NCBI GenBank assembly: GCA_946061515.1
Contig: CAMGRL010000005.1
Location: 1-64,000, forward strand
Length of the DNA stretch: 64,000 nucleotides
From: an uncultured Clostridia bacterium
GTDB lineage: Bacteria > Bacillota > Clostridia > Oscillospirales > Oscillospiraceae
Reading direction: 5' to 3'
Made by a program: the position numbers and the translations under genes
The notes under the pieces: generated by a model
Database searches by the model: none
Told to the model about the DNA's origin: nothing
The model's input: the letters and a program-made list of their open reading frames with translations, nothing else
Part shown: one piece after another, positions 2,557-44,076 of the stretch
Layout of the letters: every line of letters begins with the position of its first letter
Position numbering within the stretch: position 1 is the first letter of the stretch

Positions 2557-3363
2557 ATGGAAATGAAGAAAATACTCTCCTTTCTGGCCGTTCTCGCCCT
2601 GCTGACGGCACTGTGTGTCCCCGCACTGGCGGCAGAGCCGGAGCTTGACAATGTGACCGACGCCGCTTCTTTACTCTCCGACCAGGAGTGGGCAGCGCTG
2701 GAAAGCAAAGCGGAGGCCCTTTCCGCCCAGTATGAATGCGGCGTCTACATCATCACCCTGGACGATTTCACCGACTATGTCAATACCAATGACGTTAACG
2801 AGGCCGCGAAAGCCATCTACAGAGCGTATTCCCTGGGCTGGGGAGCGGAGAAAAGCGGCGTGCTGCTCATGCTCTCCATGGCCGAAAGGGATTACTCCCT
2901 CATCGCCTATGGCTACGGCAATACCGCCTTCACCGACTACGGGAAAGACCAGCTGGCGAAACGCTTTCTGGACAATTTTGGGGAGGATGACTGGTACGGC
3001 GGCTTCAGCGACTACCTGAACAAATGCGGCAGTATGCTGAGCACAGCCCGGGAAGGCCATCCCCTGGATGTGGACAGTTCCCCCCAGATCCGCCTGGTGG
3101 GCATTCTGATCTCCCTGGCCCTGGGTTGCCTGGCCGCCATGGCTCTCTGCTGTGTTCTGTGCCTACGCATGAAATCCGTTGCGAAAAAGGAGGAGGCTGA
3201 CAGCTATGTTCAGCGGGAAAGCGTCCAATTCATCGTCCGGGAGGATCACTTCACCCACGCCAGCCAGACCCGCACCATGGTGGAGAACAGCTCCGGCGGC
3301 GGCGGCGGGGGCGGCACCACAGTGGACAGCGACGGATTTTCCAGCAAAAGTGGGAAGTTCTGA
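2557..3363 (+). CDS. TPM-domain protein, YdjH/YgcG-like
   Basis: 268 residues with a clear signal peptide (about residues 1-25, ending ALA). A TPM domain spans roughly 33-165. A transmembrane helix lies near 183-205, followed by a cytoplasmic tail with a Gly-rich run near the end. A strong AAGGAGGGGG site precedes two close ATGs (2557 and 2563), and the second would place the signal peptide at MKK. Only nine bases separate it from the YdjG-like gene, so co-transcription is likely. The TPM domain should face outside. In Bacillus, YdjH forms a complex with YdjG and YdjI that recruits a PspA homologue. Some TPM proteins have been reported as phosphatases, which cannot be judged here. Confidence 0.75.
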   Translation: MEMKKILSFLAVLALLTALCVPALAAEPELDNVTDAASLLSDQEWAALESKAEALSAQYECGVYIITLDDFTDYVNTNDVNEAAKAIYRAYSLGWGAEKSGVLLMLSMAERDYSLIAYGYGNTAFTDYGKDQLAKRFLDNFGEDDWYGGFSDYLNKCGSMLSTAREGHPLDVDSSPQIRLVGILISLALGCLAAMALCCVLCLRMKSVAKKEEADSYVQRESVQFIVREDHFTHASQTRTMVENSSGGGGGGGTTVDSDGFSSKSGKF

Positions 3364-3408
3364 TCCTGTTTTCCCATAAAAAAGTACAATAGAACGGAGG
3401 AAAGAAAA

Positions 3409-4227
3409 ATGGGTCTGTTCGACAAAAAATACTGCGATATCTGCAAGAACAAAATCGGCCTGCTGGGCAACCGCAAGCTGGAAAACGGAAATCTGTGCAA
3501 GGAGTGCGCGGCAAAGCTATCCCCCTGGTTTTCCGACCGCCGGCGCAGCACCGTGGAGGAGATCCGCCAGCAGCTGGATTACCGGGAGGAGAACAAGGCC
3601 GCTGTGGAGGCCTTTCACACCACCCGCAGCCTGGGCAGCGGCACCAAGCTGCTGCTGGACGAGGACGCCGGGAAATTCATGGTGACCTCCGCCCGCAATC
3701 TCCGGGAGGCAAACCCGGACGTGCTGGACTTTTCTCAGGTCACCGGCTGCCGCGTGGACGTGGACGAGGATAAGACCGAGCTGAAGCGGGAGGACAAAGA
3801 CGGCAAAGAGGTCAGCTACAATCCGCCACGCTATACCTATGACTACGACTTTTATGTAATCATCAACGTCAACACCCCCTATTTTGACGAGATCCGCTTC
3901 AGGCTCAACAGCAGCAGTATTGAATCCCCGGTTCAGATCACCAAGGGAAGCGCTGTCAGACCTTTTCCGCCTGTGGTGAAACCGGGCGTGCGGCCCGGTG
4001 TGGCTCCCCGTCCCGGCCTGGGCGGCATTCCTGTGGAGTACAGCGAATGTGAAAAGCTGGGTGAGGAGATCGTGGCGGCCCTGACCCAGGTCCGGGCAGA
4101 AGTCCGTCAGGCCGCCGAGGAGGCCAGAGCCCCCAAGGCCGCCGTCACCTGCCCCTGGTGCGGCGCCCCAACCACCCCCGACGCAGAGGGAAGATGCGAA
4201 TACTGCGGCGGCGCGGTGAACGCCTGA
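3409..4227 (+). CDS. DUF4428-type zinc-ribbon protein
   Basis: 272 residues with no signal peptide. The N-terminus has a treble-clef-like Cys pattern (CDIC near residue 9 and CKEC near 30), typical of DUF4428. The middle resembles a PH-like beta fold of unknown role. The C-terminus carries a second ribbon (CPWCG and CEYCGG near residues 249-267). An AACGGAGGAAAG ribosome site supports the ATG. It follows the YdjG/YdjH-like genes closely and is probably part of the same transcription unit. Function is unknown. A strong hairpin just downstream could end the operon. Confidence 0.7.
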   Translation: MGLFDKKYCDICKNKIGLLGNRKLENGNLCKECAAKLSPWFSDRRRSTVEEIRQQLDYREENKAAVEAFHTTRSLGSGTKLLLDEDAGKFMVTSARNLREANPDVLDFSQVTGCRVDVDEDKTELKREDKDGKEVSYNPPRYTYDYDFYVIINVNTPYFDEIRFRLNSSSIESPVQITKGSAVRPFPPVVKPGVRPGVAPRPGLGGIPVEYSECEKLGEEIVAALTQVRAEVRQAAEEARAPKAAVTCPWCGAPTTPDAEGRCEYCGGAVNA

Positions 4228-4256
4228 TTTTAAAGAACATTCGTTTTTGGTAAAAG

Positions 4257-4290
4257 GAAACAGGCCAGGAAAAAATTCCTGGCCTGTTTC
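4257..4290. terminator. Perfect hairpin after DUF4428 gene
   Basis: AACAGGCCAGGAA pairs with TTCCTGGCCTGTT around an AAA/ATT loop. It can act as an intrinsic terminator for the YdjGHI-like operon, but the same hairpin recurs twice more downstream, so it is also a repeat unit. Confidence 0.65.
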
Positions 4291-4521
4291 AGACTGTAGG
4301 CAAAGCCTCGCAGAGTTTTTTCGCCGCAGCGAAAAAATAATTTTAATGCGTTTTCTGCGGCGACATGTGCGTCGCAGAAAACACTTCTCACGAAACGAGT
4401 GCCGAAATGTGGGCCGCAGGCACACATTGAGGCATCGAGTGCAGTGCATCCTCTCTCGTAGACAAAGTCTTTTTGACTTTGTCTACGCCTTGAACAGGCC
4501 AGGAATTTTTCCTGGCATGTT

Positions 4522-4729
4522 GAGGCTGTCAAAAAACTATGCTTTAATCGTCGACAATAGAGCCGCGGGGGAGCGCGAGGGGGTTAAGACCCGCCTCGCG
4601 TTACAATAACCCGCCGCAAAAAAGCTTGATTTTTCAAGCTTTTTGGGCGAAGCAGCGTTTTGAATTTTTCAAAACGCTCGGCGGTTGAAGCGGTCAAAAA
4701 AGTCCTGCCAGGACTTTTTTGACAAGCTG
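4522..4729. repeat. Dispersed intergenic repeat, short copy
   Basis: The 5' part (TCAAAAA-CTAT through CGCGGGGGAGCGCGAGGGG) and the 3' part (AATAACCCGCCGCAAAAAAG to GACAAGCTG) match a second copy at 56065-56463 almost base for base. This copy lacks the ~190-bp central segment of the other. The 3' part holds three back-to-back palindromes: AAGCTTGA/TCAAGCTT, GCGTTTTGAA/TTCAAAACGC and AAAAAAGTCCT/AGGACTTTTTT. Confidence 0.85.
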
Positions 4730-4788
4730 AACAGGCCAGGAATTTTTCCTGGCCTGTTTTCCTCAGCTTGTCCAAAAAGCTTGAATTT

Positions 4789-5724
4789 TCAAGTTTTTTT
4801 GCGGTAGGCTGGCTTTTTTAATTTGATCTCGGCCTGGGCCAGAAGAATGGCGCCGAACATGAGCGCGCAGCCGGCAAATTCCCGGATGCTCATGCTCTCG
4901 TGCAGTACCAGCCAGCCGGAAAGGGCGCTGAACACGCTTTCAAGACTCATCACCAGACTTGCAAGCGTCGGGTTGACGTCCCTCTGCCCCAAAATCTGAA
5001 GGGTATAAGCAATGCCGCTGGAGAAAATGCCCGCGTAGCAGATGGCGGGCAAAGCCTTTAGGATGCTCTCCCAGGAGGGCCTGTCCACGAAAAGCATAAA
5101 GCCCGTGCTGATGACGGCGATAACCAGAAACTGCATCCGGGAGAGCCTTACCCCATCCACAAGGGGGCTGAAATGGTCAAGGACCATGATCTCCACCGCG
5201 AAAAGGAAGGCGCTGGCCAGCACATAACTGTCCCCCAGCTCCAGAGAGAACCGGTCCGTGGTCATGCACAGCAAATACATCCCCACCAGGGAGAGCGCAA
5301 CGCAAAACCAGATATGGGGCGCAGGCCGCTTGCGGACAAAGATGCTGAGTATGGGCACAATGATGACATAGAGCGCGGTGATGAAGCCGGCCTTGGACGC
5401 CGTGGTATAGCCCATGCCGATCTGCTGGGCGGTGCTGGCCGTGAAAAGGGTGCAGCCGCTGATGACGCCGGCCATGATCAGGAATTTCTTTTCCGCCGGT
5501 GTTCTGGGCCGGCGGTTATCCACCCCCCGTTTATCCGACATGCGGTCCATACCGTACACCACCGGCGTGAGAAAGGCCACCGCGATCCAGCTTCTGCCGG
5601 CAAGATAGGTGTAGGCCCCCACATAGTCCGCGCCGATGCTCTGGGCCACGAAGGTGGTCCCCCAGAAAAACGCCGCCAAAAACAGCATGAAAATATGGGA
5701 TTTGTTGCTCTTTTGTCCGCTCAT
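4789..5724 (-). CDS. EamA/DMT-family transporter
   Basis: About 311 residues with ten predicted transmembrane segments in two EamA repeats. The motifs FFWGTTFV near the N-terminus and a second repeat ending near residue 300 are typical. The start at 5724 (MSGQKSNK) is chosen because the upstream extension is charged and unlike the family; its ribosome site is weak. EamA proteins export or import small metabolites, and the substrate cannot be told. The last codons and the stop lie inside a hairpin that matches the local repeat (CCGCAAAAAA-CTTGA), so the C-terminal tail may be repeat-derived. Confidence 0.85.
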   Translation of the reverse strand: MSGQKSNKSHIFMLFLAAFFWGTTFVAQSIGADYVGAYTYLAGRSWIAVAFLTPVVYGMDRMSDKRGVDNRRPRTPAEKKFLIMAGVISGCTLFTASTAQQIGMGYTTASKAGFITALYVIIVPILSIFVRKRPAPHIWFCVALSLVGMYLLCMTTDRFSLELGDSYVLASAFLFAVEIMVLDHFSPLVDGVRLSRMQFLVIAVISTGFMLFVDRPSWESILKALPAICYAGIFSSGIAYTLQILGQRDVNPTLASLVMSLESVFSALSGWLVLHESMSIREFAGCALMFGAILLAQAEIKLKKPAYRKKT

Positions 5725-34715: not shown

Positions 34716-35462
34716 TTACTCAGCAGCCCCCTTGTCTTTATACACGCCCAGAGGATAGTAGGGGATCATGTTCTCTTCCAACCACTTGAGTGCTTCAACA
34801 GGGCTGTAGCCCCAGTTGGTGGGGCAGGTGGACAGAACTTCGATCATGCAGAAGCCCTTACCCTCCAGCTGATACTGGAATGCCTTTTTGATCGCCTTCT
34901 TGGTTTTGAGGATGTTTGCGTTGTTGTTGACTGCGCAGCGCTCGATATAGTAGGAGCCGGGAACCTGCGCGAGCATCTCGGACATCTTGATGGGTGCGCC
35001 GCACCAGGCCTCGTCACGGCCATTGGGGGAGGTGGTGGTCTTCTGGCCCACCAGGGTGGTGGGGGCCATCTGGCCGCCGGTCATGCCGTAAATGGCGTTG
35101 TTGACGAAGATGGTCACGATCTTCTCGCCGCGGTGGGCGGCGTGGACGATCTCGGCTGTGCCGATGGAGGCTAGGTCGCCGTCGCCCTGGTAGGTGAATA
35201 CCACGGAATCGGGCTTTGCGCGTTTGATGCCGGTGGCCACTGCGGGAGCGCGGCCATGGGCAGCCTCGAACATGTCGCAGTTAAAGTAATCGTAGGCAAA
35301 AACGGAGCAGCCCACAGGCGCCACGCCTACAACGTTGCCGTCCAGCTTCAGCTCATCCAGCACCTCGGCCACCAGACGGTGGATAATGCCGTGGTTGCAG
35401 CCGGGACAGTAGTGGAACTGTTTATCGGTCAAAAGACTGGTCTTTTCAAATATGACGGACAT
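34716..35462 (-). CDS. 2-oxoacid:ferredoxin oxidoreductase beta subunit (TPP-binding)
   Basis: 248 residues. It contains the thiamine diphosphate motif (GDGDLASIG through FVNNAIYGMTGGQ), the Mg-binding Asn pair and a CPGCNH motif near the N-terminus that contributes Fe-S cluster ligands. It starts one base after the alpha stop and ends three bases before gamma, so the set is tightly coupled. Reaction: 2-oxoacid + CoA + oxidised ferredoxin to acyl-CoA + CO2 + reduced ferredoxin. Confidence 0.93.
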   Translation of the reverse strand: MSVIFEKTSLLTDKQFHYCPGCNHGIIHRLVAEVLDELKLDGNVVGVAPVGCSVFAYDYFNCDMFEAAHGRAPAVATGIKRAKPDSVVFTYQGDGDLASIGTAEIVHAAHRGEKIVTIFVNNAIYGMTGGQMAPTTLVGQKTTTSPNGRDEAWCGAPIKMSEMLAQVPGSYYIERCAVNNNANILKTKKAIKKAFQYQLEGKGFCMIEVLSTCPTNWGYSPVEALKWLEENMIPYYPLGVYKDKGAAE

Positions 35463-36542
35463 TTATTTACCCTCCTTCATTTCGAGGATCTTCGCCTTGA
35501 TCTCTTCGGTGGTGGGCATCAGGCTGCCGCAGTGGCCGAAGAAATCCACATGCTTTGCGCCGTTGACGGCCAGCTTCACGTCCTCCAGCATCTGGCCTTC
35601 GTTGGCTTCCACATCCAGCAGAGCCTTGACGCCCTCCCGGTCCGCGGCGGCCTTGAGATGCTCATAGGGGAAGGGCCACACGGTGATGGGACGGAACAGG
35701 CCGGCCTTGATGCCCATTTCCCGAAGCTCATCCACAGCGGACCTGGCGATACGGGAGACGGTGCCGAAGGCGGTGATGATGTACTCGGCGTCCTCCAGCT
35801 TGTATTCCTCCCACATCTGCTCGTTCTTTCTGGCCTCGGCATAGATGGCCTGCAGGTGGTCGTTATGTACGGTCAGGTCCTCGGTGTTGATGAAGAGGGA
35901 GTTGATGACAGCGCGCTTGGCCGGATCGTCGCCGGGCTTCCAGCCGGTGGCGGCCCAGGGCTTCTTCTCCGGGTCCACCTTGTAGTCCACCATCTCGGGC
36001 ATTTCCACAGGCTCCATCATCTGGGCGATGATGCCGTCTGCCAGAAACAGCACGGGCATACGGTACTGCTCCGCCTTGTCAAAGGCGAACGTCATAATGT
36101 TGATGGCTTCCTGGATGGATGCGGGTGCGTAGGTCAGCAGGTGGTAGTCGCCGTTGCCGCCGCCCTTGACGCCCTGGAAATAGTCGCCCTGGGAGGCCTG
36201 GATGCTGCCCAGACCGGGGCCGCCGCGCATGACGTTCAGGATCACGCAGGGCAGCTGAGCGCCTGCGATGTAGGAGATGCCCTCCTGCTTCAGGCTGACG
36301 CCGGGGCTGGAAGAAGAGGTGATGACGCGGGCGCCGGTACCGGCAGCGCCGTACACCATGTTGATTGCCGCGACTTCGCTCTCCGCCTGGAGGAAGCAGC
36401 CGCCTACCTCAGGCATACGGGCGGACATATATTCGGGAATTTCTGTCTGCGGGGTGATAGGATAGCCGAAGAAGAAACGTGCGCCGGCGCGGATTGCGGC
36501 CTCCGCAATCGCTTCGCTACCCTTCATAAGAGTCAATGCCAT
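35463..36542 (-). CDS. 2-oxoacid:ferredoxin oxidoreductase alpha subunit (Vor/Kor type)
   Basis: 359 residues. It holds the pyrimidine-binding domain (FFGYPITPQTEIPEYMS near residue 24), a conserved Glu in the QAESEVAAINM segment that activates TPP, and a transketolase-C-like domain. The sequence resembles proteins named 3-methyl-2-oxobutanoate dehydrogenase subunit VorB, so branched-chain 2-oxoacids are the likeliest substrates (annotation habit, not proof). It follows the small ferredoxin gene by 13 bp. Confidence 0.92.
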   Translation of the reverse strand: MALTLMKGSEAIAEAAIRAGARFFFGYPITPQTEIPEYMSARMPEVGGCFLQAESEVAAINMVYGAAGTGARVITSSSSPGVSLKQEGISYIAGAQLPCVILNVMRGGPGLGSIQASQGDYFQGVKGGGNGDYHLLTYAPASIQEAINIMTFAFDKAEQYRMPVLFLADGIIAQMMEPVEMPEMVDYKVDPEKKPWAATGWKPGDDPAKRAVINSLFINTEDLTVHNDHLQAIYAEARKNEQMWEEYKLEDAEYIITAFGTVSRIARSAVDELREMGIKAGLFRPITVWPFPYEHLKAAADREGVKALLDVEANEGQMLEDVKLAVNGAKHVDFFGHCGSLMPTTEEIKAKILEMKEGK

Positions 36543-36847: not shown

Positions 36848-37555
36848 TTACAGGCTCAGTCCCTTTACCCAGCTGTCCCAGTCGCGGTGCATATAGGTGT
36901 CGATGGCGATGGGTGTGCCGATGTATTTGGGGTCGTGCCCTTCTGCCAGGAAAATGTCCAGCAGTTCCTTCCGCCCGGAAGTGTAGGCCACCGGGACGCC
37001 GGTGATCTCAGACACCTGTTTGATCATCTCATAGCCGTCCCGCAGTTCAGCCGGGCCGGTCATCTGGGCCAGGTTGGTGTTGTTGATCATTCCGGTGATC
37101 TTCAGCCGGGAATGGAGCTCCATCTCCTCCTGAAGGTGGATGATCTTCTCCACCGTGCCTGCCAGCGGGCGGCGGATGTTGACCACGTTCAGCACCTCCA
37201 GCTCCCCGGGAGCCAGGGCCATGAAATCCTCATGGTAGCGGCCCAGCGCCGTGGAGCCCACAGCGTCTCCGCCCACGTCGAACACCACGGTATCCCAGTC
37301 CATGTCAAAGGCGGAGGCCACCTCCGCGGGCAGGGACAGGGTCTCGATGCCGGAGCAGGCGTAGTTGGGGGAGACGAGCCTGATCTCCTTCATGTTGACC
37401 AGCTTGCCGTGCTCGGCCAGGCGGAAGTAAGTGTTCACCATGTCCAGATCCAGAAGCTCCGTGCGGCCGTGCTGCGCCGCCTTCATGGCAAAGTTCATGG
37501 CCAGCTCGGTTTTTCCGCTGCCGTAGTTGCCGATCATCACATAATATTTTTTCAT
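36848..37555 (-). CDS. P-loop ATPase preceding the vor genes
   Basis: 235 residues. A Walker A motif, GNYGSGKTEL, is near residue 8, and a Walker B-like VVFDVGGDAVG is near residue 90. The protein resembles Mrp/ParA-like SIMIBI NTPases but lacks the deviant Walker A. It is the first gene of the transcription unit, 82 bp before the ferredoxin-like gene. Such ATPases are seen beside Vor/Por genes in other clostridia, in my recollection. A role in cofactor assembly or regulation is possible, but I see no direct evidence. Confidence 0.75.
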   Translation of the reverse strand: MKKYYVMIGNYGSGKTELAMNFAMKAAQHGRTELLDLDMVNTYFRLAEHGKLVNMKEIRLVSPNYACSGIETLSLPAEVASAFDMDWDTVVFDVGGDAVGSTALGRYHEDFMALAPGELEVLNVVNIRRPLAGTVEKIIHLQEEMELHSRLKITGMINNTNLAQMTGPAELRDGYEMIKQVSEITGVPVAYTSGRKELLDIFLAEGHDPKYIGTPIAIDTYMHRDWDSWVKGLSL

Positions 37556-37772: not shown

Positions 37773-37806
37773 AAAAAGTACAGGCGGTTTTCCGCCTGTA
37801 CTTTTT
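37773..37806 (-). terminator. Terminator of atp operon
   Basis: An AAAAAGTACAGGCGG/CCGCCTGTACTTTTT stem directly abuts the epsilon stop codon. Confidence 0.9.
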
Positions 37807-38069
37807 CATTCCATATTCATCGTTGAGACCAGTACCGTCACTTCATTGTCCGCCACATTGGCTATCCCGTCGCTGACGGAAAGGCGGAAAAGGCTGTCCT
37901 CTCCCACGCGGTATTTCAAAATACCGCTCTTCACCGCGCAGAGCATGGGGGCGTGGCCGGACAGCACACCCACCGAGCCGAAGGCCGTGGGTATGGAGAC
38001 GTAACTGACCATTTTCTCGTGGTTTTCGCCTTCGGCGGTGACCACGCTGAGTTTGATTCTGTCCGCCAT
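37806..38069 (-). CDS. atpC: ATP synthase epsilon subunit (short form)
   Basis: 87 residues, only the N-terminal beta-sandwich of epsilon (LSVVTAEGEN..., VSIPTAFGSVGVLSGHAPML). The usual C-terminal two-helix domain, which inhibits ATP hydrolysis, is absent; normal length is about 130-140. The stop is followed at once by the operon terminator, so the shortness is not a local frameshift. Natural short forms are known, for example in Chlorobium. Epsilon should still couple gamma to the c-ring, but lack of the inhibitory tail means other control of hydrolysis. Confidence 0.93.
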   Translation of the reverse strand: MADRIKLSVVTAEGENHEKMVSYVSIPTAFGSVGVLSGHAPMLCAVKSGILKYRVGEDSLFRLSVSDGIANVADNEVTVLVSTMNME

Positions 38070-38077
38070 TTTCCACC

Positions 38078-40343
<2,266 letters not shown>

Positions 40344-40371: not shown

Positions 40372-42615
40372 TTAGCTGAAGTTTCTGCCGAATTCCGTAA
40401 TCAGTTCCCTGAGCTTGCTCCGCTGCTCGTCGCTCAGCTTCTTTCCGCTGTCGATGATGGCGGTAAGCTCCGGCCAGCTGTTGTGGATGAAGGGTATGAG
40501 CTCCCGCTCGTAGCGGCTCACACTCTTGATGTCAATATTGTCAATAAAGCCTTCGTTGGCGGCAAAAATGGCGATCACCTGGTCTGCCGCGTCCATGGGG
40601 CTGTACTGCTTCTGTTTCAGAAGCTCCGTCACCTTGCGGCCCCGGTTCAGGGCGTCTCTGGTGGCCTTATCCAGATCAGAGCCGAACTGGGCAAAAGCCT
40701 CCAGCTCTCTGTGCTGGGCCAGGTCCATTCTCAGCCGGCCGGAGACCTGCTTCATGGCCCCCAGCTGGGCCGCGCCGCCTACGCGGGACACGGAAAGGCC
40801 CGGGTTCACGGCGGGACGGATGCCGGAGTTGAACAGCTCCTCCTCCAGGAAGATCTGTCCGTCGGTGATGGAGATGACGTTTGTGGGGATATAGGCGGAG
40901 ATGTCGCCCGCCTTGGTCTCCACAATGGGCAGTGCGGTCATGGAGCCGCCGCCCTTTTCGTCGCTGAGGCAGGCAGCCCGCTCCAGCAGACGGGAGTGGA
41001 GATAAAACACGTCGCCGGGGTAGGCTTCCCGTCCGGGCGGACGGCGAAGCAGCAGGGAAATCTCCCGGTAGGCCACGGCCTGCTTGGACAGGTCGTCATA
41101 GATGATCAGCACATGGCGGCCCTTATACATGAAATACTCGCCGATGGCCGCGCCGGCATAGGGCGCGATATAGAGCATGGGCGCCGGCTCAGAGGCTGAG
41201 GCGCAGACCACGATGCTGTAATCCATGGCCCCGTTTTCCCGCAGCTTCTCCACGATGCTGGCCACGGTGGATTCCTTCTGGCCGATGGCCACATAGATGC
41301 AGATCACATCCTTGCCCTTCTGGTTCAGGATGGTGTCGATGGCGATGGCGGTCTTGCCCGTCTTTCTGTCGCCGATGATCAGCTCGCGCTGGCCCCGTCC
41401 GATGGGGACCAGGGCGTCTATGGCTTTGATACCGGTCTGCAGGGGGATCGTCACGGGCTTTCTGTCCAGCACAGCGGGGGCCGGACTCTCGATGGGCCGT
41501 GTCTCCTCGGTCCGGATCAGACCCATGCCGTCGATGGGGCGGCCCAGAGCGTCCAGCACGCGGCCGATCAGCCCCTCGCCCACGGGCACCTCGATGATGC
41601 GCCCGGTGCGGCGGACCTCGTCGTCTTCCTGCACCTTGCCGTAGTCGCCCAGCAAAACCACGCCCACGTCGTCCTTTTCCAGGTCCATGACCATGCCGCG
41701 AAGCTCGCCCTCAAATTCGATAAGCTCGCCGGCCATGACGTCGGACAGGCCGGAAACCCGGCAGATGCCGTTGGAAAGGCTCTTCACCCGGCCGGTCTGG
41801 TACACGTCCACCCCGGCACGGACCTGGGACAGCTTCTCCTTCAGCGCCCCGGTCATATCCCCTTCCAGGGCGTCGCCCTGTTCCAGGCTCTTTTTCACCT
41901 GGCGGAGCATACCGGACAGACTGCCGTCAACCACGGTGTCCCCGATCTGCAGGCGCACGCCGCCGATCAGTGAGGGGTCTTCCAGAGCCTCCGCCCTGAC
42001 CTCTGCCGCGCCGAATCTGCTTTTAACCAGCGCAGCCACCCGCTCCACGTATTCCGGCCCGGGCTGTTTTTCCGCGCTGATCTGGATATGGACGGCCTCT
42101 CCCCGCTCCGCTCTTGCCAGATCGCAGGGGCTGGGGTTCAGCTCATGTTCAAGATATTCAATAAAGCGCTCTTTCAGCTGCGCTCTCTCTTTTGCCCGAT
42201 CCTCGCCGCCCAGAAGTCTGCCTGCGGCAGCGGTAACGCTGTCCGCTGCCATGTCGGTCAGTTCTCTTCTGGCGTCGTACATCTCATGCCGGTTCTCCCG
42301 GTTTGTCTCCCGCAGGACCTCATCGGCCGCAGCCTGGTCTCCGTCCTGCTCCCTGAGACTGTTCTCCCGGGCCCGGTCCTCCGCGTCGCTGATGATCTGC
42401 CGGCGGAGTTTTTCCGCCTCCGCGCCGCTGGCGTTCAGATCGTCCTGCAAAGCGGCGGCGTTCTCTCTGGCCTGTTGGGCCCGCTCTAAATCACCGGCTA
42501 TCCTGTCCCGACGGCCTTTGAACATTTTCACAACCATTTTCCTGCCGGCAAAGTACAATATCGCGGCAAGAACGGCGAAGTTCAACAGTCCGTAAAATAT
42601 GTTCCATCCGCCCAT
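40372..42615 (-). CDS. ATP synthase b-delta-alpha fusion protein
   Basis: One uninterrupted frame of 747 codons. Residues ~5-24 are a membrane helix and ~30-160 a b-type coiled coil (second stator b subunit). Residues ~175-245 are the C-terminal domain of delta ([21 protein letters not shown]). Residues 254-747 are a complete alpha subunit with P-loop GDRKTGKT (415-422) and the VSRVGGAAQ motif. The delta N-terminal six-helix domain is missing. Mycobacteria have a b-delta fusion, but an additional join to alpha is unusual. Three fused copies per F1 would give three b and three delta, which conflicts with the standard stator. An internal ATG at 41856, preceded by GGAAGGGG, could supply free alpha (494 residues). 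Confidence 0.9.
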
Positions 42616-42656: not shown

Positions 42657-43097
42657 TTATTCTCCTGCGGCGTAACCGCTGCTGAGCAGCCTGTCGGCAA
42701 GCAGGGCGGCAAGCTCGGTCTCGCTGTCTCTGAGCTTCCCGGATTCACTCTCCTGAAGCCTGCAGAGTTCTTCTCTTGCCCTGCTCCGGCTCTCCTCGGC
42801 GCTCTGCCGGGCCTGCCGCAGCGCAGCCTCCCGGCGCTGCTCGTCCGCGTTCCGGGCCTGCTCCACGATGCTCTTTGCCTGGTCCATGCTCTCTTTCCGC
42901 CGGGCCTCCAGGAGCATCTCATTGGCCTGCACCGCGGCGAGAGCCTGCTTCTCCGCGTCCAGTCCCTCTTCGATGCGGGCATTGCGCTCGTCCATGAAGC
43001 GGATCAGCGGGTCATACAGAAAACGCTTGAGCAGGAAAAACAGCAGGAAGAAGCTTATCGCGGTCAAAACCAGCTCGGAAATATTTATGCTAAGCAT
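42657..43097 (-). CDS. atpF: ATP synthase b subunit
   Basis: 146 residues: an N-terminal membrane helix ([22 protein letters not shown]) followed by a long coiled coil (about 30-140). It is the first of two b-type segments of the operon; the second is the N-terminal part of the fusion gene downstream, so the stator should be a b/b' heterodimer. A separate full delta gene is not present. Confidence 0.93.
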
Positions 43098-43133: not shown

Positions 43134-43361
43134 TTAAATCTTGCTGACCAGCATAAAAGCGATGAGCAGACCGTAAATGGTCAACGCCTCAATAAGGCTC
43201 AGTGCAAGGATCAGCGAAATGCGTATATTGCCTGCCGCCTCGGGCTGGCGGGCGATGGACTCCATGGCCTTGGATGCCACCATGCCCTGAGCGATGGCGG
43301 GGCCGCATACGCAAAGACCCATCATGATTGCGACTGCAAGTGCGATTGTTCCGGATGCCAT
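43134..43361 (-). CDS. atpE: ATP synthase c subunit
   Basis: 75 residues from the ATG at 43361, eight bases after GGAGG. A helical hairpin with the ion-binding Glu at 58 ([10 protein letters not shown]) and the polar loop (ARQPEAAGN). Gln25 matches the Gln of Na+-binding c subunits, but the residue after Glu58 is Ala instead of the Ser/Thr used for Na+ coordination. The first helix has [12 protein letters not shown] in place of the common GxGxGxG run. Ion specificity is therefore undecided. Confidence 0.95.
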
Positions 43362-43404
43362 AATTTTTTCCTCCAAAAAATTAGTTTTTATTTATAGTTC
43401 AGCG

Positions 43405-44076
43405 TTATTCTTCAGCCGCCTCGGACACATAGATGCCCAGCAGCATGGTGAACACCATGGCCTGAATCAGGCAGAAGATCAGGCTCAGTACATTCATCAG
43501 CAGCGGCAGCAGGATGGGAAACAGATTATATAACTGCTCCAATACCATCTCCTCGCCGTACAGGTTGCCGTATAGACGCAGGGCCAGAGAAAAGGGCCTC
43601 ACGATCTGCTCGATCAAGTTAAGGGGCAGCATAATAAAAAAGGGCATAATAAATGTTTTAAGATAATGCCCCAGCCCCCGCTCCCGGATGCCGATGGTGT
43701 GCGTGGTAAAAAAGGCAACAATGCCGAGGGCCGCCGTTACCGACAGGCAGGCCGTGGGCACCGCGAAGCCTTTCAGATGCCCCGCTCCCGGCAGCAGTCC
43801 CGAGTAGTTGCAGACCACAATAAAAATAAAGAAGGTGGCAAAAATGGGAAAATACTTTTTCGCCGTTTTCGCGCCCATAATGCCGGCAAAATAATTTTGC
43901 AGGCTCTCCACGGCCATCTCGGCAATATTCTGCAGCGGGCCGGGCACATCTTTCAGTTTTCTTGTGGCAAGAATGGACAGAACTGTGAGGATCAGTATAA
44001 TGACCCACATGGTCGTAAGGGTACTGGTGATCTGCACCGGGCCTATACTGAACAGCACATTGGTTTCTTCCATCAT
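43405..44076 (-). CDS. atpB: ATP synthase a subunit
   Basis: 223 residues with five to six membrane helices. The essential Arg is in SLALRLYGNL (about residue 160). Two ATGs in a row follow GGAGGTGAT; either may start. It is the first gene of the atp operon, with no atpI before it. Order: a, c, b, b-delta-alpha, gamma, beta, epsilon. Confidence 0.95.
   Translation of the reverse strand: MMEETNVLFSIGPVQITSTLTTMWVIILILTVLSILATRKLKDVPGPLQNIAEMAVESLQNYFAGIMGAKTAKKYFPIFATFFIFIVVCNYSGLLPGAGHLKGFAVPTACLSVTAALGIVAFFTTHTIGIRERGLGHYLKTFIMPFFIMLPLNLIEQIVRPFSLALRLYGNLYGEEMVLEQLYNLFPILLPLLMNVLSLIFCLIQAMVFTMLLGIYVSEAAEE

Follow-up and report, generated by a model that had tools for sequence, protein, structure and literature searches.

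The ATP synthase operon and its fused gene

The window, as we call the whole 64,000-nucleotide stretch that was analysed, derives from a draft genome of 2.22 Mb in 118 contigs (81% complete) and holds an F-type ATP synthase operon on the minus strand, with the genes in the order a, c, b, fusion, gamma, beta and epsilon (Table 1). The operon is ordinary apart from the fused gene, which the ORF list gives as a single 747-codon open frame running from an ATG at 42615 down to 40372. The preliminary description did not name the strand; it is the minus strand, and the plus strand of 40372-42615 is interrupted by stops.

Table 1. Coordinates of the fused gene, its parts and the other genes of the ATP synthase operon in the window.
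Feature	Position	Strand	Size, basis or remark
b'-dCTD-alpha fusion, stop codon included	40372..42615	-	747 aa; Pfam and NCBIfam
b' arm: membrane helix and long helix, residues 1-160	42136..42615	-	Pfam ATP-synt_B 6-135; model helices 5-135 and 138-158
Delta C-terminal domain (dCTD), residues 172-246	41878..42102	-	OSCP 173-244; delta N-terminal domain absent
Junction, residues 247-253	41857..41877	-	residue 253 is ATG (41859-41857), GGAAGGGG upstream, unconserved among relatives
Full alpha subunit, residues 254-747	40375..41856	-	Pfam and NCBIfam
a subunit	43405..44076	-	ORF and Pfam
c subunit	43134..43376	-	ORF and Pfam
Separate short b subunit	42657..43097	-	146 aa, without the C-terminal helix of ordinary b; ORF, Pfam, alignment
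gamma subunit	39480..40343	-	ORF and Pfam
beta subunit	38078..39463	-	ORF and Pfam
epsilon subunit	37806..38069	-	87 aa, beta-sandwich domain only; ORF, Pfam, NCBIfam

Pfam placed ATP-synt_B on residues 6-135 of the fusion (41.2 bits against a curated cut-off of 28) and OSCP/delta on residues 173-244 (46.3 bits against 22.3), followed by the barrel (274-338), the nucleotide-binding domain (395-610) and the C-terminal domain (617-742) of alpha, each above its curated cut-off. NCBIfam matched residues 253-746 to F0F1 alpha (atpA, TIGR00962) with 787.9 bits against a cut-off of 484.45. These matches bear out what had been read from the letters, namely a b-type helix, a delta C-terminal domain (dCTD) and a full alpha subunit in one 747-codon frame. 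As the OSCP/delta match spans only positions 101-172 of the 172 profile positions, the delta N-terminal domain is absent from the fusion, and no second delta was detected in the source genome (81% complete) at E-values up to 10, the sole match being the domain within the fusion. The missing N-terminal domain of the preliminary description is thereby confirmed, and the complete delta (OSCP) expected of an F-type ATP synthase was found neither in the window nor in the source genome. Nor did we find a second F-type alpha; a search of the source genome, at 81% completeness, with the whole fusion returned the beta of the operon alone, at 27% identity.

All seven operon genes match F-type families above the Pfam cut-offs, and the beta subunit reaches 777 bits against the atpD cut-off of 462.85 in NCBIfam, where b (61.7 against 65.5) and epsilon (63.4 against 67.25) fall slightly under the cut-offs. 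Directly after epsilon lies a gene for a P-loop-like protein of 235 aa (36848-37555, minus strand), for which Pfam gave no family above cut-off and CbiA as the best match (18.6 bits against 25.4). Downstream of the operon on the same strand, at 34716-36542, are genes resembling the two core subunits of a 2-oxoacid:ferredoxin oxidoreductase (POR_N, PFOR_II; TPP_enzyme_C).

Retention of the join in related genomes

An open frame with five collinear family matches that is retained by relatives is far beyond chance. The preliminary description had proposed to search for the join in related genomes, and took relatives that all carry separate atpH and atpA as a sign of error or private mutation; the join was found, and the relatives keep it. 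With a fusion profile at 1e-100, 70 of the 102 genomes of the genus gave a match, and 61 of these hold the fusion at full length, 60 of them stop-free by our count of the listed rows. Within the 61, G006 has two such fusions, the G1238 fusion stops at position 733 close to the end of its contig, and G1191 has a single in-frame TAG inside b'. The two full fusion operons of G006 (L005 and L027) differ from each other, and this draft is either a mixed genome or one with two copies. Of the loci from named records, L028 is 96% identical and L030, L031 and L034-L039 are 53-64% identical to the window fusion, each in one stop-free frame. The fusion is cut by contig ends in G005, G016 and G021, split across two contigs in G1187, broken mid-alpha in G1210, and in G002 both cut by a contig end and interrupted by a single in-frame TAG inside the alpha barrel.

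Some members of the genus are built differently. In G1178 and G1193 the place of the fusion is taken by a different operon (L218, L219), in which the dCTD is joined to alpha without b' and the a, b and c genes are divergent. In G1237 delta and alpha are separate genes; their contig looks chimeric, and the contamination of this genome is 7%. Six of 24 same-genus genomes gave no fusion match at 1e-50, and none of these six had an atpA above cut-off; four showed weaker matches only, as V/A-type subunits give, and two none.

An assembly error or a private mutation as the source of the join might be argued from the draft state of the source genome, with its 118 contigs, and from the fact that most relatives are metagenome-assembled. 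We regard this as a practically negligible prospect, as the same join recurs in named records from several assembly projects and occurs not only throughout the genus counts given above but in four further families; the relatives refute it.

Distribution in the order and origin of the fusion

The hosts of the fusion are uncultured gut and rumen bacteria. In a survey of 394 genomes across the order, at least 17, the source included, carried the full-length b'-dCTD-alpha frame among the matches listed, the lowest scores of which lay far below those of full fusions. Among the matches listed, the fusions come from five families (f1, f18, f19, f20 and f23), and all 17 also match separate b', dCTD and alpha profiles. 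A b'+dCTD profile run on 391 genomes of the class gave a stop-free fusion in the source genome only, and the same result was obtained among the matches listed for 398 genomes of the phylum.

We placed the loci in a tree of 137 rows, computed from alpha alone by a quick maximum-likelihood method with SH-aLRT support; in it the fusions form one clade of 43 rows with support 99. The clade has two subclades, one of 27 rows (own genus and L039; support 98) and one of 16 rows (other families and L054; support 100). Three of its rows have no fusion label, L019 and L020, which are cut by contig starts, and L016, which is the G002 locus with the TAG. It should be noted that the tree was made without eight loci (L001, L002, L029, L032, L033, L108, L129 and L179; own copies, duplicates and others), exact duplicates, 16 separate-alpha Pelagibacteraceae rows and rows with a first alpha-core match below 500 bits (the fusion loci L035, L038 and L132, and L177). 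The clade in the alpha-only tree and the retention across families point to a single origin and a long retention of the b'-dCTD-alpha fusion.

Two loci assigned to other phyla were considered as candidate fusions. L075 (Blastocatellia) has a 749-codon open frame with no b' or dCTD match before alpha, and we ascribe it to chance. L054 (JAFRIR010000133.1), labelled Flexilinea (Chloroflexota), is a true fusion operon, but as it nests in the clade of this order we reject it as a separate origin; it is a misbinned contig or a transfer.

Other joins of delta and alpha occur in the same order and class. The dCTD is fused to alpha without b in L162-L165, L167, L169-L172, L174, L176-L178 and L023, and L160 (G122, 3023-5065), of the same family, reads as two tandem dCTD copies fused to alpha (dCTD-dCTD-alpha). 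According to Pfam, the alpha of L159, L161, L166 and L168 is joined to a delta that keeps most of the N-terminal domain, and by length and sequence the same holds for L173 and L175. The delta-alpha fusions present in the tree make up a separate clade of 22 rows with support 98. In L180 (G432) and L181 (G561), from other families of the class, b is followed by one TAA and then dCTD-alpha in the same frame, and loss of this single stop would yield b-dCTD-alpha; both loci stand apart from the two clades, on branches with supports of 86 and 94, below the starred level of the tree. Judged from these sequences the fusion of delta and alpha has arisen more than once. As L159, L161, L166 and L168 keep a near-full delta, fusion is not always paired with loss of the N-terminal domain, and they count against a simple rule, being fused and yet retaining the domain thought to limit the number of stalks.

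Comparison with known systems

In passages of Ueno et al. (2025; PMC12229609) the delta N-terminal domain, which lies on the pseudo-threefold axis, is described as limiting FoF1 to one stalk. When these authors deleted the domain and joined the dCTD to alpha, up to three stalks were obtained, and every stalk seen bore an a subunit. By SDS-PAGE the engineered enzyme had 2.2 times the a and 1.8 times the b of the wild type, its H+/ATP was 5.8 as against 3.0 and its equilibrium pmf about half, and the three-stalk enzyme could form ATP at a weaker gradient; in cryo-EM, a small fraction of the particles bore three stalks, and in many the number was lower (PMC12229609). The same source presents several stalks as a route to higher H+/ATP that differs from nature's, and calls for a stably bound multi-stalk FoF1 to link the number of a subunits with the H+ stoichiometry. 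It also names Acidaminococcus fermentans and two UniProt entries as natural dCTD-alpha fusions, probably multi-stalk and awaiting proof.

The window operon shares with the engineered Bacillus PS3 FoF1 dDeltaN-alpha (PDB 9JC1 and 9JC2; PMC12229609) the loss of the delta N-terminal domain, a short dCTD-alpha linker, the lack of a full delta and an epsilon without C-terminal domain. The fusion thus has both changes made in the engineered enzyme, and a b-type arm in addition. In the PS3 enzyme the stalks are b2 homodimers of separate chains and their number was measured, whereas in the window b' lies inside the alpha chain, a short b is separate, and the stalk number is predicted from the genes alone. 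The natural dCTD-alpha fusions (L162-L165, L169-L172 and others, and A. fermentans as described in PMC12229609, which is the basis of our comparison) likewise carry the dCTD on alpha, lack the N-terminal domain and are predicted to be multi-stalk. Those of the order differ from the window in having no b' in the chain, a b of ordinary length and an alpha in a separate clade.

The preliminary description knew of no earlier b-delta-alpha fusion. For the b' part this stands as regards the PMC12229609 passages, in which it is unmentioned; for the remainder it does not, since the dCTD-alpha fusion and its multi-stalk meaning are already in print there. A search of the open-licence literature, mostly titles and starts of abstracts, gave no earlier account of an alpha fused to both b' and the dCTD, and likewise none of a single origin of this fusion, of the shorter b or of a start-codon test at the junction. 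As far as our searches show, the added b' arm, the single origin with long retention, the shortening of b and the junction test are new here.

The delta part of the mycobacterial b-delta fusion is complete. This fusion of Mycobacterium and Gordonia (PMC5709465; NCBIfam NF009961) resembles the window in having a b-type arm on delta beside another single b gene, but its alpha is separate while that of the window lies in the same frame, and window residues 1-251 scored 25.2 against the NF009961 (b/delta) cut-off of 328. In subunit b of the N-ATPases (alternate F1F0; TIGR03321) a b part is followed by a dCTD-like domain as in the window; an example is L199 (G1129, 1360-2175), a 271-aa N-ATPase-type b above the TIGR03321 cut-off with a dCTD-like C-terminal part and alpha separate. 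The N-ATPases, unlike the window, have alpha as a separate gene and the order beta-epsilon-a-c-b-alpha-gamma (PMC5709465), and the window operon does not begin with beta and epsilon. The window alpha scored 656.6 against the TIGR03324 cut-off of 750.5, and its b'-dCTD 49.2 against the TIGR03321 cut-off of 224.7. The V-type ATPases have three stalks (PMC6131620), the number predicted for the window enzyme; their E/G stalks are different subunits and are not covalently joined to the head, unlike b', which is covalent with alpha.

Structure model

An AlphaFold2 model of the fusion as a single chain, built from 26 sequences, had a mean pLDDT of 74.4 and a pTM of 0.56. It shows a helix at 5-135, a second helix at 138-158, a confident dCTD at 163-246, a short linker and the alpha N-terminal helix at 254-264, while the stretches 394-420, 519-541 and 567-616 within alpha are poor, in parts with pLDDT below 50. 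The top three Foldseek hits among 350,542 PDB chains were 9JC1 I, K and J ('Engineering of ATP synthase'), with 566-572 alignment columns and query TM-scores of 0.48-0.52. This rank reflects the shared dCTD and alpha and the sequence and is no proof of an equal domain arrangement, and 9JC1 was absent from the best 50 entries of VIA-align, which match mostly over alpha. By sequence, the window junction aligns with 9JC1_I as a collinear run of dCTD into alpha (1.1e-28), the natural linker being three residues shorter, and residues 1-340 matched 9JC1_I at 7e-28, with the next PDB chain at 1.7e-17.

The junction and the question of free alpha

In the window, residue 253 at the start of the alpha part is encoded by an ATG (41859-41857) preceded by GGAAGGGG, and L003, L004, L028 and L030 have a comparable junction ATG preceded by AAGG or GAGG. 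An enzyme of one fused and two free alphas, the latter arising from an internal start near residue 253 or from proteolysis of the linker, would have a single stalk, and these ATGs are what speaks for it. We therefore counted start codons in the junction, taken from the end of the dCTD to the alpha barrel, in 40 fusion loci (L035, L038 and L132 left out). Neither ATG, GTG nor TTG occurs in 7 of the 40, or in 9 of 42 when L035 and L038 are included, and ATG is missing in 19 of 40 (21 of 42). Start codons are at background frequency, with 84 observed against 85.3 expected from the codon use of each frame, and 32 against 36.1 for ATG.

Relatives have M, L, V, I, F or A where the window has this ATG, as would be the case for a buried helix position. 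The junction length is nearly fixed, at 31-33 codons in the own subclade except for 37 in L038, and at 36-37 in the other subclade. As an internal start for free alpha, the window ATG and its upstream SD-like sequence are rejected, being neither conserved nor enriched across the clade. With a junction that has no conserved or enriched start codon, a separately made alpha seems unlikely, and we judge the mixed enzyme to be improbable; a lineage-specific free alpha is possible given the SD-like sequence at the window ATG, and some alpha may be released by proteolysis, on which the sequence has no bearing. Of the two outcomes that the preliminary description offered, a new stator arrangement is consequently favoured over a need for free alpha, there being no second alpha gene found and no conserved internal start.

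The shortened b subunit and selection on the arm

All 28 fusion operons listed have the order a, c, b, fusion, gamma, beta; each has a single separate b upstream of the fusion, and neither delta nor alpha occurs as a gene of its own. Counted from where the b match begins to the end of the protein, the separate b is 137-148 residues long in all but one of 42 fusion operons, the exception having 158. In delta-alpha operons (22) the range is 154-165, and in ordinary Bacillota operons (23, our own pick from the retrieved loci) it is 156-163. In an alignment of a selection of sequences the separate b is shorter by about 20 C-terminal residues, which correspond to the last helix, and b' keeps this helix just before the dCTD. 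In known enzymes the C-terminal end of b docks on delta. The simplest reading would be a division of labour, in which b' carries the join to F1 and b serves as stalk partner.

In seven pairs dN/dS stayed below 1 in the alpha core (0.06-0.11), the barrel (0.06-0.22), b' (0.04-0.59) and the dCTD (0.15-0.67). The 23-codon linker gave noisy values, 1.10 in one pair, undefined in one and 0.03-0.44 in five. Hence b' and the dCTD appear to be under purifying selection.

A proposed stator with three stalks

F1 has three alpha subunits and we saw no other alpha and no conserved route to one; three dCTDs and three b' arms are therefore expected unless the chain is cut. The earlier stoichiometric argument, that three alpha per F1 mean three arms or three delta domains if all are fused, holds. 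We suggest that the operon probably encodes an F-type ATP synthase with a roughly threefold-symmetric stator, in which every alpha chain would contribute a dCTD and a b' arm that reaches into the membrane. Each b' would pair with a single copy of the short b, which makes three peripheral b/b' stalks in one enzyme, the loss of the delta N-terminal domain removing the piece on the F1 axis that normally permits one stalk only. Each stalk could then recruit an a subunit to the c-ring, and multiple a subunits would mean more ions per ATP and could allow function at a low ion gradient. We infer three stalks, the b/b' pairing, the number of a subunits, a high H+/ATP and the direction of use; in particular, by analogy with the engineered enzyme, three b would join the arms and up to three a subunits may be working.

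The covalent linkage of b' to alpha argues against a single peripheral stalk. It might nevertheless be that all alphas are fused and one arm only reaches an a subunit, with the other two b' arms unpaired or idle and the ion cost normal. Each operon has a single gene for a and a single one for the separate b, although gene number is silent on copy number, and many engineered particles had fewer than three stalks (PMC12229609). Against idle arms stand the purifying selection on b' and the dCTD, the fixed gene set and the shortened b, which favour use of each arm, and the a subunit on each stalk seen in the engineered enzyme (PMC12229609); we find this explanation rather unlikely.

Several observations also count against the three-stalk stator itself. 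They are the near-full delta-alpha fusions of the same order, the dCTD-alpha without b of G1178 and G1193, the separate genes of G1237, the single stops in G1191 and G002, the SD-like sequence at the window ATG, the moderate quality of the model and the missing 9JC1 among the best 50 entries of VIA-align.

A fuller claim, which we put forward tentatively and hold to be slightly on the doubtful side of even, is that of a natural enzyme with three b/b' stalks covalently built into it and as many as three a subunits at each c-ring, with one origin in the order and retention in five families of anaerobes. With the ion cost per ATP taken as c-ring size times the number of a subunits divided by three, the cost would rise up to threefold, and ATP could be made at gradients too low for ordinary enzymes. 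If the enzyme is assembled as the sequence implies, nature made both of the engineered changes and then built the stalk into the chain. Selection would then have produced in nature an enzyme whose stalks are covalently held, of the kind sought in PMC12229609, and this would suggest how anaerobes live on small ion gradients.

Ion-translocating subunits and gradients

RnfC, a marker of a membrane ion pump, was present in all 21 fusion genomes tested (20 above cut-off); these were fusion-bearing genomes only, and its presence is compatible with a life on small gradients and nothing specific to the fusion. Epsilon has 86-90 aa in 8 of the 11 fusion loci where it was seen, and 94, 107 and 136 aa in the others. 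The arginine motif of the a subunit and the glutamate of the c subunit are present in 42 of 42 fusion loci in which these genes were seen. Coupling to Na+ was considered and set aside, as in the c subunits of the 42 loci the ion-binding Glu is followed by Ala or Thr, which we take to differ from the usual Na+ signature.
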